A DNA stretch of 33,244 bases from an uncultured Chlorobiaceae bacterium (GTDB taxonomy: Bacteria; Bacteroidota; Chlorobiia; Chlorobiales; Chlorobiaceae). Position 1 is the stretch's first letter. Every line of letters starts with the position of its first letter. The notes under the pieces are model-generated. The model ran no database searches, was not told the DNA's origin, and saw nothing but the letters and a program-made list of their open reading frames with translations. Location: NCBI GenBank assembly GCA_903942355.1, contig CAJAOR010000122.1, positions 1-33,244 of the forward strand, in the 5' to 3' direction. Below, piece by piece: positions 14,491-31,950 of the stretch. The position numbers and the translations under genes are program-made.

Positions 14491-14606
14491 AACCCTTCAG
14501 ACAACGCCGGAGATCGGCACCATCGACCAGATCAACTTCACACCCATCAAGCAATACCAGAGTTCATCACCGGCAAGCTGCTTCCGTTCTGGATTATCAG
14601 GCCTGC
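14491..14606 (+). pseudogene. Scrambled remnant of an ABC-2 permease gene
   Basis: Two blocks copy the gene at 12980-14101. Bases 14491-14512 match 13441-13462, and 14509-14606 match about 13594-13690 with few mismatches, including a perfect stretch covering the codons for FITGKLLPFWII. About 130 bp of the parent is missing between the blocks, the junction lying at a shared CGGAG-like sequence, and a two-base insertion (AG at about 14561-14562) breaks the frame. It is not translatable as a permease. Confidence 0.8.
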
Positions 14607-15103
14607 TTTTTTGATTTCCAGGGTTTAAGGATGGAAACAAATAGGGTGATGATCAGCACCAGAACCTGAACGGTGCCGAACATCAGATTCATCTGCTGAT
14701 TGTACAGGTACGCCGAATCAGTTAAGGATGCCATGCCGATTTTGCCGGAGATGTCCATCATTGCGGTTTCCCAGGGGCCGAGGAAAAATGTTCCGAACAC
14801 AATTGCGATTAGGGTCACAATCCATTTGAAGGTGAGCCAGTTGTGCTTGAAGAATCCCCAATGAGAGAATATGGAGTAGAGCAAACCGGTCAGAAGGCTC
14901 CCTATGGCACCGGGAATGACGACAATATCCATATCAACATGATGAATACTCTTGTTTATTCCGTACAAGACGCCGCCGTCAGTAACACCCTCTTTCAGGA
15001 AGTAAAGCGCCAGCAGGGAAGCAGCGCCTCCGATCCAGGAAGAAACGGCAATGAGGTGAAACCCTTTGAGCCATTTCAATCCTTTTGGTGAAAACTTTTT
15101 CAT
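14597..15103 (-). CDS. DUF2269-like integral membrane protein
   Basis: 168 residues with four predicted transmembrane helices at about 13-33, 54-76, 88-110 and 138-160. FHLIAVSSWIGGAASLLALY in helix 1 and the HH pair before helix 2 (SIHHVDMDIVV) match the DUF2269/CopD-like pattern, where such His residues may bind haem or metal; that role is not shown here. A basic tail (KPWKSKKQA) suggests the C-terminus is cytoplasmic. It begins about 75 bp after the Cache-channel gene on the same strand and may be cotranscribed. Its 3' end abuts the permease remnant. Confidence 0.72.
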   Translation of the reverse strand: MKKFSPKGLKWLKGFHLIAVSSWIGGAASLLALYFLKEGVTDGGVLYGINKSIHHVDMDIVVIPGAIGSLLTGLLYSIFSHWGFFKHNWLTFKWIVTLIAIVFGTFFLGPWETAMMDISGKIGMASLTDSAYLYNQQMNLMFGTVQVLVLIITLFVSILKPWKSKKQA

Positions 15104-15178: not shown

Positions 15179-17344
15179 TCAAGAGGTCCAGAAACTACAA
15201 AGGGTGACGATGTAGAGAATTCCGAGATAAAACGGCCAATATAGATAGCGGAAAATCAGTCCGTGGCGATATTGGAAAAGAATGAAGTTCTTTTGCTCGG
15301 TCACCCCTATAGCTACCGTAATGTTTGCCAAAATAGCAAAATAGATGATGAAGTAGATTTTTTCAACATAGAGGATCTCATTAGGTATAACCGCTCCTCT
15401 TATGTGCTGGCTTGCGATAACCAGGAAGATTATAAAGGTTGCGCCAATGATCGAGGTACGCATGGCATCGAAGTTAAACATTTTTCTCATTTTGGCATCA
15501 GTGGTGATCATGCGAATGCCCGAGAAGAGGATGTAGAAGATGACAAAGATAGGAATCAAAACTGATATGAAACTGCTGATCCAATCTCTGGTAAACGATA
15601 TGTTCAGCAAGATGTCCCTATAGTAGTGATAACCGTTTGCCGTTCGCAGGCCATAATCGATACCGTAGGTGTGTTGATATAATTTGTAATAGGTGTTATT
15701 GAGCTGCCACCCAGGGATATGGAAATTATCAGCAACCAATTTGCATGCTGACGGAGAAATTATCTTGTAGGACTCGATATCGGGCAGAAAGATAATCGAT
15801 GTAAAGTCCTCTGCCGGGCGTATTCTGAGCCGGATGTTGATGCGGTCGAACGGGTAGATGCTGGTTATGAAGTCTTGCCGGATTTTGGTTTTGAATGACC
15901 AGCCAACCACAGAGTACCCGTTTTCCTTTACCCGGTATTCTTCTTTAAAAGTTGTTTCAATTTCATCAGGAAACTTGATTCCAATCGTTTTTTTGATGGC
16001 AATACCGTCAGGAATTCTCTCCCAGATAATTCCATACAGGTCAACGTTTTCAAGCGATTCATCAATTCGTCCTGAACGTACAAGCGCGCCCAACTGGATG
16101 AATTCCGGAGGAGGTTTCAGGCCGTTCAGTGCATTTGCAATCTGTTCCTTTTTGTACTGTTCTATCTGTGGTAAGGTCGTGATGCATTGGTCGGCATATG
16201 GAGACTTATTGCCAAAATTGATTTGCAAAAACCATGTGGTGACAAGCGCGATTAAAAATACTGCCGAGCTGAACCATGCGATGCCGGCAATCTTGGCAAG
16301 ATCTGACCTTGATGATGTATAAAGAAAGAAATAAAATCCGGAGAGTACCAGAAAAATGGATGTCGCAGTAAGTATCTTATAATACTGTGTTTTTATAAGG
16401 CTATCCGGAATGGATAGTTCCTGCGTTATAAGGGTGATTCCCGTGACCCAACCAATAACGGGCACCGGTTCAAGGCGTATCATGGATAACTGCTGTGATA
16501 TGATGTTGTTGGTAAGGATTGTTACAGGGGTTTTATCGGCAAATGTGTGCTGAATCAGCTTCTGGTTGGCAACGGAATATGCCTTTTTGGCATTATCGAG
16601 GAAATTGTGTTTACTGACAACCAGTTCCTTGTTGGGATGGGATATCGTTGTGCCGTCTTCTTCTTCAATGAACCGGTAACCATAGCTTCCGAGATCGCGA
16701 TTGTTCAAAATCTGGTTTAGCTGACTTATGTTCATCTGTGCAGCTATCAGGCCGATTTGGATGTCATGGCCCGATAAGTCTTTCTTGTGCAGCGTACGCT
16801 GGTAGCAAACAGTCATGCCATGCTCTTCGTTGCTCCATTGAGCTTTTTGCCACCCAGAAGTCGGTTGTTGTTGTGAGATATTGGTTTGGAAAGCATATTT
16901 CGATTCAGAATCGAATACAGTTATATTGCCGGCCTTAAATATCTGTTCAAGTTCAGGTTTGTTTAATATTTGATTCCGGATTTTTGATCCGTTTTCGTTT
17001 AAATAAATATTTATAGAGCCCTTCCAGGGATTGTCGATTTGATGACGGGAGATCAATTCGAGAAGCTTATTTTTATTTAAGGTGTCAGCGGAAAACAAAG
17101 TTTCTATTTGACCTGTGCAGCCTTCAACCATCTTGGTATATTTGCTGATGCGCTTTGCGTCGGCCATTGTTCCGTTAATGGCTTTCGCTTCAATTGCTTT
17201 ATAGTTATTATCAAGGCTGATAACGAGTTCACCTATTAAAAGAAGAAGGGTAATTAACGCAGCAACTATCGTCAAGATCAGGGAGTACTTGATGATTCTG
17301 TGTGATCGGATCTTCACTTTCGATATTTCCGGCATACTTCCCAT
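15179..17344 (-). CDS. Cache-domain / pentameric ligand-gated ion channel-like fusion
   Basis: 721 residues (alternative ATG at 17335). A cytoplasmic N-terminus and TM helix (20-42) lead to a periplasmic domain (43-315) with dCache character (GYRFIEEEDGTTISHPNKEL). A TM hairpin (about 324-342 and 355-376) leads to a second periplasmic domain (380-585), then four C-terminal helices. This last part reads like a Cys-loop/Pro-loop receptor: YPFD at 497-500, the hallmark loop, then a beta-strand RINIRLRI; pre-M1 LNISFTRDW; M1 about 590-609 with LIPIF; short loop; M2 629-653; M2-M3 loop with P654; M3 656-681 starting ILYVEK; M4 696-718. No kinase, HAMP or cyclase domain exists, so a sensor-output kinase is excluded. 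The ligand and ion are unknown, and the channel call is by pattern, not by search. Confidence 0.7.
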   Translation of the reverse strand: MGSMPEISKVKIRSHRIIKYSLILTIVAALITLLLLIGELVISLDNNYKAIEAKAINGTMADAKRISKYTKMVEGCTGQIETLFSADTLNKNKLLELISRHQIDNPWKGSINIYLNENGSKIRNQILNKPELEQIFKAGNITVFDSESKYAFQTNISQQQPTSGWQKAQWSNEEHGMTVCYQRTLHKKDLSGHDIQIGLIAAQMNISQLNQILNNRDLGSYGYRFIEEEDGTTISHPNKELVVSKHNFLDNAKKAYSVANQKLIQHTFADKTPVTILTNNIISQQLSMIRLEPVPVIGWVTGITLITQELSIPDSLIKTQYYKILTATSIFLVLSGFYFFLYTSSRSDLAKIAGIAWFSSAVFLIALVTTWFLQINFGNKSPYADQCITTLPQIEQYKKEQIANALNGLKPPPEFIQLGALVRSGRIDESLENVDLYGIIWERIPDGIAIKKTIGIKFPDEIETTFKEEYRVKENGYSVVGWSFKTKIRQDFITSIYPFDRINIRLRIRPAEDFTSIIFLPDIESYKIISPSACKLVADNFHIPGWQLNNTYYKLYQHTYGIDYGLRTANGYHYYRDILLNISFTRDWISSFISVLIPIFVIFYILFSGIRMITTDAKMRKMFNFDAMRTSIIGATFIIFLVIASQHIRGAVIPNEILYVEKIYFIIYFAILANITVAIGVTEQKNFILFQYRHGLIFRYLYWPFYLGILYIVTLCSFWTS

Positions 17345-26676: not shown

Positions 26677-27840
26677 CTATTGATGTGCTTTACCGATATA
26701 ATTCCCTTTGATAGCAAAGGCGGCCAGAGCTTGTTTTTCATTGAATATCAAGGCATTTCCCTCGCAAATAAAATTTCCGCCAACTTTCTTGAGGGCTCCA
26801 TCAAGGGACGTAAGTTGATTCCCTGAACAATCGAAATCTCCCTTGACTTTTTTAGGAGCACCATCAAGCGAGGTCAATTGGTTATTCGAGCAATTAAAAT
26901 AACCCTTAACCTTTTTGGAGGCACCTTTGAGCGATGTCAACTGGTTGGCGGAACAATTGAAATTTCCGCTGACTTTATGAGGCGCGCTTTCGAGTGTTGT
27001 CAACTGATTGTTTGAACAATCAAAATCTTGAACATACTGAGGCGTACCTGCAAGTGAGGTCAGTTGGTTGCCTGAACAATTGAAATTTCCCTCAACTTCT
27101 TTAGGGGCACCCTTAAGTGAAACGAGCTTATGGTTTGAACAATCAAAGTTGCCATAAACAAAAATCGGCCCGCCTTTGAGGGATTTCAGCTGGTTTCCTG
27201 CGCAAAAAAAGTTGCCAATAATAAAACTGGGAGACCCTGTGAGTGAGGCCAGTTGATTGCCGGAGCAATCGAAATCTCCATGAACTTCATCCGGGCTTCC
27301 TTCGAGTGATGCCAAATGATTGTGTGAGCAGTCAAAATCACCAACTTCCTGAGGAGCACCCTCAAGAGTTGTCAACTGGTTGTCCGAACAGGAAAAATCA
27401 CCGCCAACTTTACGAGGCGCTCCTATGAGTGACGTCAACAGGTTATCTGAGCAAGAAAAATCACCACCAACTTTTTTTAGATAACCCTGGAGTGTCGAGA
27501 TCTGGTTTCCTGAACAATCGAAATTACCAGTCACCTTTTTTGGAACTCCATCGAGTGAGGTTAGTTGATTGCCGGAGCAATCGAAATCTCCATGAGCTTC
27601 CTCCGGTCCGCCTTCGAGTGTTGTCAGCAGGTTATTTGAACAAGAAAAATCACCGACAACGTTATGAGGCCCCCCCTCAAGTGTTGTGAGATGGTTCCCG
27701 GAACAATTGAAATTCCCTGCCACTATTCCCGGACAACCCTCAAGTGAGTTTAGTCCCATATTTGAACAATCTATATCGCCTTTTCCATCAAGCTGGCCCA
27801 TACTATCAGCGAATGTTATTTTCGTTACGTCTGTAGTCAT
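26677..27840 (-). CDS. 21-residue leucine-rich-repeat protein A with cysteine ladder
   Basis: 387 residues from the ATG at 27840. After a short cap (TKITFADSMGQLDGKG) come 16 tandem repeats of 20-21 residues, consensus G(D/N)F(D/N)CSxNQLTSLxGxPxxV, then a C-terminal cap (CEGNALIFNEKQALAAFAIK). The spacing F-x-C-x-x-N-x-L-x-x-L fits a bacterial leucine-rich-repeat solenoid, with Cys in the usual leucine position. Almost every repeat has this Cys, giving a buried ladder of about 16 thiols. There is no signal peptide or TM helix, so it is probably cytoplasmic. It is paralogous to the gene at 30898-31950; the two flank ppk1 and face away from each other. Function unknown; protein binding is typical of LRRs. 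Confidence 0.8.
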   Translation of the reverse strand: MTTDVTKITFADSMGQLDGKGDIDCSNMGLNSLEGCPGIVAGNFNCSGNHLTTLEGGPHNVVGDFSCSNNLLTTLEGGPEEAHGDFDCSGNQLTSLDGVPKKVTGNFDCSGNQISTLQGYLKKVGGDFSCSDNLLTSLIGAPRKVGGDFSCSDNQLTTLEGAPQEVGDFDCSHNHLASLEGSPDEVHGDFDCSGNQLASLTGSPSFIIGNFFCAGNQLKSLKGGPIFVYGNFDCSNHKLVSLKGAPKEVEGNFNCSGNQLTSLAGTPQYVQDFDCSNNQLTTLESAPHKVSGNFNCSANQLTSLKGASKKVKGYFNCSNNQLTSLDGAPKKVKGDFDCSGNQLTSLDGALKKVGGNFICEGNALIFNEKQALAAFAIKGNYIGKAHQ

Positions 27841-28325
27841 TTTTAATCTTTGCAAATAAATGATAGATATGAAAAGCATAATCAGTTTCGCTATATAAGT
27901 GAAATTAAAAAAATATCCAATCTGGTATCTTTCTTTAAGAAATATTAAAGAGAGTTCAGAACGCGTTATTAATAATTTCTTTTATAGAGATCGGTCACTA
28001 AATTGTATTTTAAGTGCTTGTTTTTATTGAATTTATCATTTTTCTAAAGAATGCTATTCTAAAAAAAGCCTTGTTTTATCCGCTCGTTGTTTAGTAGATG
28101 CTGTGTATTTGTTTTCAAACTTGTAACATGGGTATGTTGCTTTCTGACATCAAAGCCTATAAATTGATTTTCTGTTTAATTGAAATTGAATTCGGGATTA
28201 TACAAGCATGTAATTCATTTATTGTCTGCAAGCGGTAAAATTATTTTCGTTTTTTGGTGTTATGGTCGAAAATGGATTGTTGTGCAATTGTCAAAAGATT
28301 CAGCTAACGAAACCATTACACGACG
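27841..28325. other. AT-rich divergent promoter region before ppk1
   Basis: About 485 bp between the divergent LRR gene A and the ppk1 side. I find no gene. It is strongly AT-rich, as promoter DNA would be, and contains the Pho-box-like repeat at 28277-28294. Nothing else is assigned. Confidence 0.5.
28277..28294 (+). promoter_or_regulatory. Candidate Pho box upstream of ppk1
   Basis: TTGTTGTGCAATTGTCAA: two TTGT(T/C)-type heptamers with a 4-bp spacer, oriented toward ppk1. It agrees at 14 of 18 positions with the repeat upstream of arsD (22446-22463, minus strand). It lies about 240 bp before the ppk1 frame and 32 bp before a small ORF. Confidence 0.4.
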
Positions 28326-30650: not shown

Positions 30651-30897
30651 AATAAACAATCAACTTAACTCCTAATTGAGCCGTAAAGTTATAACGGTGG
30701 CGGTTTATAAAATGAGCTATAAGATAATCAATGCATACAATATCACTGCGACAGCGGAGGGCGAGAATAGTTTTTGGACGACAGTTATATCCTGCGCAGT
30801 CTTTTTTCCGTAGCATAGTTGAAACATTTACTTAATATAATGCTGAATATCTTTTGTTGTTGGTTTCGTTAATTTGTTTTTCAAGGGAGATAGTAAG
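30651..30897. other. Intergenic gap between ppk1 and LRR protein B
   Basis: 247 bp without a gene. I see no strong terminator after ppk1. The promoter of LRR gene B may lie here, but no confident -35/-10 pair or Pho-box-like repeat stands out. Confidence 0.35.
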
Positions 30898-31950
30898 ATG
30901 ACCAAGAAAGTAACGTTCGCCGATGTCATGGGAGAGCTTGATGGAAAAAGTGACATCGATTGTTCCAATAAGGGATTAACGTCGCTTGAAGGATGCCCGG
31001 AGAGAGTAAAGGGAGATTTTAACTGTTCAGGCAACAAGCTCACCACACTTGAGGGCAGCCCCAAAAAAATTAAAGGAGATTTCAACTGCTCAGGGAACAA
31101 GTTGACCTCACTCGTAGGCAGCCCTGAGGAGGTTAAAGGGGACTTTGACTGTTCCGGTAATCAACTGACCTCTCTTTTGGGTTGTCCGGCTTTCATTATG
31201 GGTGATTTTTCTTGTGCCGGAAATCAGTTGACCTCGTTGAAAGGGGAGATTACTTCAAATACCGAAACCATTGTCTCGGGCTGTCCTGAGATAGTAGAAG
31301 GAGATTTCAACTGTTCCGGCAACCAGCTCACCTCACTTGAGGGCGCCCCGTTGATAGTAGGTGGTGATTTTTCCTGTTCAGACAATCAGCTTACTGTACT
31401 TGAGGGTTTGCCAAAAAAAGTGCAAGGGGATTTTGATTGTTCCTGCAACCAACTGTCATCACTGGCAGGCATGCCTAATACAATCAGAGGAGATTTTTTT
31501 TGTCCGGCAAACCGGTTGACCTTGCTTAAAGGCGGCCCTCGGGAAGTGCACGGCAACTTCGATTGCTCAGGCAATCAACTGACTTCGCTTAAAGGGGCTC
31601 CTAAGCAAGCTGGGACATTTGATTGCTCAGGTAATCAATTGACTTCCCTCAAAGGTGCTCCTCAGGTAGTTGATGCTTTTAATTGTTCAAATAATCAACT
31701 GAATTCACTCAAGTGGGCCCCTGAAAAGGTAAAGGGTAATTTTGATTGTGCATGGAATCAGCTTGCAACACTTGAGGGCGCTCCAAAAAAGGTCAAGGGT
31801 AATTTCGACTGCTCAGAAAACCAGTTGGTCTGCCTTGAGGGTTCTTTGAAGAGAGTTGGCGGAGACTGGATTTGCGGGCAGAACGTGCAATCCTTAAATG
31901 AGGAACAAGTCAGGTCGCTTTTTAATGTGAAAGGCAACTGTTTCTTGTAA
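30898..31950 (+). CDS. 21-residue leucine-rich-repeat protein B with cysteine ladder
   Basis: 350 residues from the ATG at 30898, with GGGAGA about nine bases upstream. Layout as in protein A: a near-identical N-cap (KVTFADVMGELDGKSDIDCS), 14 repeats of 20-21 residues (consensus DFDCSGNQLTSLxGxPxxVxG), and a related C-cap (SLNEEQVRSLFNVKGN). Repeat 5 carries a 12-residue insertion (EITSNTETIVSG). Two adjacent repeats near residue 240 are one residue short. A Cys again occupies the inward LRR position in every repeat. No signal peptide. Closest relative in the window is protein A, so one arose by duplication. A cytoplasmic scaffold or binding role is plausible but not shown. Confidence 0.8.
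   Translation: MTKKVTFADVMGELDGKSDIDCSNKGLTSLEGCPERVKGDFNCSGNKLTTLEGSPKKIKGDFNCSGNKLTSLVGSPEEVKGDFDCSGNQLTSLLGCPAFIMGDFSCAGNQLTSLKGEITSNTETIVSGCPEIVEGDFNCSGNQLTSLEGAPLIVGGDFSCSDNQLTVLEGLPKKVQGDFDCSCNQLSSLAGMPNTIRGDFFCPANRLTLLKGGPREVHGNFDCSGNQLTSLKGAPKQAGTFDCSGNQLTSLKGAPQVVDAFNCSNNQLNSLKWAPEKVKGNFDCAWNQLATLEGAPKKVKGNFDCSENQLVCLEGSLKRVGGDWICGQNVQSLNEEQVRSLFNVKGNCFL

Follow-up and report, generated by a model that had tools for sequence, protein, structure and literature searches.

Proteins that join a bacterial sensor domain to a pentameric ligand-gated ion channel (pLGIC) have been described before. In 2004-2005, Tasneem et al. reported ART-LGICs fused to Cache and MCP-N domains in Methanosarcina, Cytophaga, and Microbulbifer, and for the bacterial pLGICs with Cache and MCP-N they proposed a role in chemotaxis (PMC549065). 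Their description of these proteins gives a signal peptide, extra domains, a ligand-binding domain (LBD), and four transmembrane (TM) helices; compared on that description, it mentions no TM hairpin between Cache and LBD, and Chlorobi do not figure in it. Elsewhere in the open-licence literature, our searches found Cache linked to pLGICs in no other work, and a search on ligand-gated channels or GLIC together with Chlorobium gave none with Chlorobium among the matches listed. DeCLIC shows that bacterial pLGICs are modulated by additional domains at their N-terminus (PMC12664993, PMC9897478). As its architecture is set out in those accounts, no helices are described between its N-terminal and receptor domains.

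Our analysis concerns a gene in a window of 33,244 nucleotides, the whole stretch of DNA that was analysed, from an uncultured Chlorobiaceae bacterium. An open reading frame with an ATG start encodes a product of 721 aa, which a sequence-only reading had proposed to be a Cache-type sensor fused to a pLGIC. Profile searches, together with Foldseek searches of full-length and C-terminal-half models, bear this out as far as the fold is concerned. We give a probability of roughly 0.8 to the reading that the product is a divergent prokaryotic pLGIC subunit, most likely homopentameric, with seven TM helices per subunit. Its parts are as follows.

15179 to 17344, minus strand: Cache-pLGIC gene, 721 aa; an open reading frame whose orthologues are intact in 13 further genomes
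17213 to 17287, minus strand: TM1, N-terminal membrane anchor, residues ~20-44; hydropathy peak in all orthologues and a model helix
16415 to 17212, minus strand: periplasmic dCache-type sensor domain, residues ~45-310; dCache_1 at E 1.7e-5 (under Pfam's own cut-off), orthologue profile at 6.9e-7
16316 to 16393, minus strand: TM2, hairpin helix 1, residues ~318-343; hydropathy and a model helix at 314-342
16217 to 16291, minus strand: TM3, hairpin helix 2, residues ~352-376, immediately ahead of the receptor domain; hydropathy and a model helix at 346-376
15587 to 16192, minus strand: pLGIC periplasmic beta-sandwich (receptor) domain, residues 385-586; beta-rich in the model, Foldseek matches to pLGICs
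15845 to 15856, minus strand: YPFD of the Pro-loop, residues 497-500; invariant in 14 orthologues
15503 to 15583, minus strand: M1, residues ~588-614, with invariant P598 and preceded by invariant R586; alignment and model
15392 to 15466, minus strand: M2, the presumed pore helix, residues ~627-651; model helix of low confidence
15458 to 15460, minus strand: R629, at the cytoplasmic end of M2; alignment column and tree
15296 to 15367, minus strand: M3, residues ~660-683; hydropathy and a model helix
15188 to 15262, minus strand: M4, residues ~695-719, with invariant W703-P704; hydropathy, C-terminal-half model, and alignment

The layout of the protein in the membrane is seen by hydropathy and by the models, and it is the one that the sequence-only reading had discerned: an N-terminal TM helix, a hairpin, and four C-terminal helices. 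Seven hydropathy peaks (residues 23-41, 324-342, 352-370, 592-610, 627-648, 663-681, and 701-719) account for TM1, the hairpin, and M1 to M4, and the pattern is repeated in the 14 aligned orthologues, among which M4 often falls under the hydropathy cut-off used. On inspection, the predicted cytoplasmic loops are rich in Lys and Arg, and the topology therefore matches the positive-inside rule. The reading frame is intact in 14 genomes at 38-59% identity, which excludes a chance open reading frame, and the channel half is the best conserved part.

The C-terminal half is related in fold to pLGICs. A search with the Neur_chan models, to which the sequence-only reading had looked for confirmation, did not provide it: no curated pLGIC model of Pfam or NCBIfam matches this half, nor did its own profile match PDB sequences. 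The PF02932 search was likewise empty, but so were its controls, and hence it says nothing about absence. Because no curated model reaches the C-terminal half, homology was tested by fold search, a bridging family, and landmark residues. Structures were predicted with AlphaFold2 from the 14-orthologue alignment, for the full length and for the C-terminal half separately. Confidence was good for the beta-sandwich and low for the helices; by blocks, pLDDT was mostly 75-92 in the beta-sandwich of the C-terminal-half model and 40-53 from M2 onward. The best PDB match of the full-length model in Foldseek was DeCLIC (5.9e-10), followed by GLIC, GABA-A, GlyR, and ELIC, with a probability of 1.00; the matches listed for it were pLGICs, one entry, SsCl, not being recognizable by name. 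For the C-terminal-half model, GABA-A rho1 came first (2.4e-12), then GLIC and ELIC. Fold matches to DeCLIC, GLIC, and GABA-A were within 1e-9 to 1e-12, TM-scores against whole pLGIC chains were ~0.45-0.65, and in a viral library the single significant match was a Neur_chan_LBD protein. Since model confidence is low in the helices, it is mainly the beta-sandwich on which the fold match depends. Neither a C-terminal half devoid of beta-sandwich and four helices nor a best match to an unrelated family was seen.

The landmark residues of pLGICs are also in place. In the models, the receptor domain is a beta-sandwich and leads into four TM helices, the TM part being predicted at low confidence. 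There is a Pro-loop with P and D, of the YPFD type, lying exactly at 497-500 where the sequence-only reading had put it, and a basic residue stands before M1. Of the 14 orthologues, 13 have the Pro noted in the M2-M3 loop (P654), and the remaining one (L008) has Ala. No Cys pair of the animal Cys-loop type frames YPFD in the window protein, which on its residues is to be classed as the Pro-loop type, without the animal-type disulphide pair. P498, D500, R586, and P598 are invariant across the Chlorobiaceae protein and its relatives in Vibrio and Acaryochloris, and in the TM3 region W371 and P382 are invariant equally far.

Homology to established pLGICs runs through bridging paralogues and not through a single-model search. 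The same genus encodes plain pLGIC paralogues of 350-370 aa (L021-L028, L030-L039), whose profile matches a GLIC-GlyR chimera at 4e-18 and GLIC at ~6e-11, with GABA-A also matched; in the four scanned, they fall under Pfam's cut-off. Aligned with the window protein, these paralogues match residues 412-679 (hhalign probability 92, E 7e-7), and in a whole-genome search with their profile the window gene was the sole match (2e-7). They share with the window protein the pLGIC core, matching across the receptor domain and M1-M3, but they have a short hydrophobic N-terminus only, without Cache or hairpin, and their M1-M2 loop is shorter than that of the window protein by ~8-11 residues. A mixed alignment of the C-terminal half with the small paralogues (A3) was left out of structure prediction because the aligner had opened gaps in M2. 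Ten genomes of the genus have plain paralogues, and in seven of these ten the Cache form is found as well (hypergeometric p 2e-4, uncorrected for kinship). The Cache form with which they co-occur is that of the Glu clade described below. Mixed pentamers of a plain paralogue and the Cache form are possible.

As judged by profile matches, the N-terminal half is a divergent Cache domain. The Pfam search gave dCache_1 at residues 197-256 and dCache_2 at residues 145-309 (E 3.1e-4), both under Pfam's cut-off, and the first takes in the GYRFIEE...HPNKE segment that the sequence-only reading had called Cache-like. A dCache_1 match at E <= 0.1 is given by 13 of the 14 orthologues, and the orthologue profile reaches solved dCache chemoreceptor domains. 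In the orthologues, the domain sits between TM1 and TM2, on what loop charges suggest is the extracytoplasmic side. It is the least conserved large part of the protein, with 8% invariant columns.

The full protein is conserved in 14 Chlorobiaceae genomes (13/65 of the genus and one of a sister genus). Samples of ~390 genomes of the phylum held no further member with the full architecture, and a PF02931 search of 394 genomes of the phylum recovered plain channels only, in two genomes, with frames of 319-372 aa. A truncated copy that hardly differs from the Chlorobiaceae gene in L005 lies on a contig labelled Chloroflexi (L006, CAIWRB010000310.1); this contig is probably mis-binned or chimeric. 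A search of plasmids by tblastn reached farther. A replicon of Vibrio sp. THAF191d encodes a protein of 692 aa (L099:2618-4696; dCache_1 6.8e-9) with the same order of TM, dCache, TM, TM, receptor domain, and four TM helices. Plasmid pREC1 of Acaryochloris marina encodes one of 486 aa (WP_012166950.1, L098:3980-5440) that is without Cache and has as its first element the TM helix in front of the receptor domain. Both are ~19-22% identical to the window protein. A phage collection yielded no match. Because 23 positions are invariant across the Chlorobiaceae, Vibrio, and Acaryochloris proteins, we regard them as a distinct pLGIC subfamily; on the strength of alignments, it is a divergent one that escapes curated models and occurs in at least three phyla.

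Within the Chlorobiaceae, the tree groups the window protein with three others (L007, L008, L009) at a support of 1.0. At the cytoplasmic end of M2, the four members of this Arg clade carry R629, and the other ten, the Glu clade, carry E629. Likewise, position 621 is K in the Arg clade and E in the others, with Asn in one; no Arg or Lys is found there outside the Arg clade. Since R620 occurs in three Glu-type orthologues also, we count the charge swap at 621 and 629 alone. The register of M2 can be fixed only to within about three residues: residue 629 would be -2' if P654 is 23' and 0' by the polar face. It would be 1' if FDA is likened to the YEA motif of GLIC, a correspondence that we presume. 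Opposite selectivity is a fair prediction because under each register 629 lies in the segment that sets charge selectivity in known members; from these charges, anions would be expected to pass in the Arg clade (K621, R629) and cations in the Glu clade (E621, E629). A polar face of M2 is formed by T/S631 (12/14), T/S/A at 635, T638 (13/14), Q646 (13/14), and R649 (all). The helix was modelled as 627-651 in the full length and 627-647 in the C-terminal half, at low confidence. A Phe-lined pore was considered and, because of the uncertain register, is not claimed.

Gene neighborhoods differ between the clades. In nine of the nine Glu-clade loci with enough flank (L075, L077-L083, L002), the gene is followed on its own strand by a two-partner-secretion exoprotein gene (TPS/ESPR), in most cases accompanied by a ShlB-type transporter gene; one further Glu-clade contig ends too early to be counted. 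A UPF0114 gene often stands between the Glu-clade gene and the secretion genes. At the four Arg-clade loci, window included, there are no two-partner-secretion genes. Directly upstream in two Arg-clade genomes (L072:8148-9092, L073:7660-8562) is a 314-aa protein, the two copies 52% identical, with a TM helix at each end, a Cache-like look that Pfam did not confirm, and no obvious output domain; it recalls the Rhodopseudomonas Cache-pLGIC operon of Tasneem et al. (PMC549065). In the Arg-clade genome G057, a Bestrophin-like domain protein, possibly an ion channel, adjoins the gene on the same strand (L074:10854-11633). A scan for promoters and terminators gave sites no more frequent than in shuffles.

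The window has a minus-strand run of CHAD, ParA, PhoA, ArsA, PhoB, and PhoR genes that closes with the Cache-pLGIC gene and, after it, a HemJ-like gene; PPK lies beyond the run. The last of the run (14597-15103, minus strand) encodes a HemJ/UPF0093-like membrane protein of 168 aa, 75 bases after the gene, and was not found near other orthologues. Two proteins that give weak leucine-rich-repeat and similar matches (26677-27879, minus strand; 30874-31950, plus strand) flank the polyphosphate kinase gene. From the phoBR, phoA, and polyphosphate neighbors, which are all there as PhoR-, PhoB-, ArsA-, PhoA-, ParA-, CHAD-, and PPK-like genes, the sequence-only reading had drawn the idea of coupling to phosphate or another nutrient. 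As a special case of the channel reading, the protein would sense phosphate or polyphosphate status and move counter-ions as pools change. The polyphosphate part of this neighborhood is partly shared by six other orthologues: three Glu-clade genomes have CHAD-ParA directly upstream, a fourth has ParA there, where its contig starts, and in two more PPK is near the gene. Against this, PhoB/PhoR-, PhoA-, CHAD-, and PPK-type genes were not found at the other three Arg-clade and four Glu-clade loci, apart from one response regulator with 26% identity, and the adjacency of phoBR and phoA is unique to the window. We regard a phosphate role as improbable.

Three further explanations would deny the protein its place among ion channels or give it another output. 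The most serious is that the pLGIC fold is retained without conduction, the Cache domain providing the input and the pLGIC module a scaffold, in a membrane sensor that signals via a partner protein. The bulky residues of M2 (F637 in 13/14 orthologues, F640 in 14/14) and the unusually long M1-M2 loop would fit such a protein, and the UPF0114 and two-partner-secretion genes beside the Glu-clade gene could supply the partner; yet there is no cytoplasmic output domain, the M3-M4 loop is short, and M2 has its polar face as well, so that we hold this to be unlikely. A chemotaxis receptor, following the published proposal (PMC549065), has in its favor that the nearest solved Cache domains are those of chemoreceptors. 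However, CheW is absent from 48/48 good-quality genomes of the genus, by a search that in a control found it in 7/14 known genomes, and on this ground we reject a chemotaxis role in this genus and give the idea very little weight. The sole CheW matches in the genus (G040:C220:4849-6793) lie in a fragmented genome, 82% complete, and are possibly contamination. Finally, it is highly improbable that an unrelated membrane family resembles pLGICs by chance: no curated model matches the C-terminal half, but two models searched against two fold libraries, the bridging paralogues, and the conserved landmarks all point to pLGICs.

We return to the ligand-gated channel. Each subunit would run from TM1 through a periplasmic dCache sensor, the TM2-TM3 hairpin, and a periplasmic beta-sandwich to the M1-M4 pore module. 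On binding a solute from the periplasm, the Cache domain would shift the receptor domain, either by direct contact or via the hairpin that tethers the receptor N-terminus, and this shift would bias the opening of the M2-lined pore. The output would be an altered membrane potential or ion content and not chemotaxis. The fuller proposal, a seven-TM pLGIC subfamily with two periplasmic sensor modules and a hairpin-tethered receptor domain, one clade of which is selectivity-reversed via K621/R629 versus E621/E629, is tentative, and we would not yet wager on all its parts together. If the protein is a channel, it would be a natural two-sensor pLGIC, with an ordinary bacterial sensor domain of the chemoreceptor type coupled to a receptor channel, and it would offer a close pair of clades that predict opposite ion selectivity. 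In addition, curated models overlook an entire pLGIC subfamily, one with members in at least three phyla. As Cache-fused pLGICs are present in bacteria without detectable CheW, chemotaxis is not their general role.

How far, then, does this protein depart from known systems? The sequence-only reading had left open whether the architecture is described; in concept it is, and the Cache-pLGIC idea is not new, since Tasneem et al. described it (PMC549065). As they portray them, their proteins resemble the window protein in having a Cache-type sensor N-terminal to a receptor domain and four TM helices, and in being scattered among prokaryotes. The divergent version and its spread look undescribed. 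The TM hairpin before the receptor domain is apparently undescribed as well, and the same seems to hold for the reversal of charge that sets the two clades apart where M2 meets the cytoplasm, and for the two-partner-secretion genes linked to the Glu-clade gene. DeCLIC resembles the window protein in its large extra N-terminal periplasmic domain and its pLGIC core fold, but as characterized in the accounts of its structure that domain consists of two calcium-binding jelly-roll lobes and is not Cache (PMC12664993, PMC9897478). With GLIC, ELIC, and the animal GABA-A and glycine receptors, the window protein shares the beta-sandwich receptor domain, the Pro-loop, the Arg before M1, the Pro of M1, and four helices, at 10-16% identity in fold alignments; unlike them, it has an extra TM1, a Cache domain, a hairpin, and a longer M1-M2 loop.
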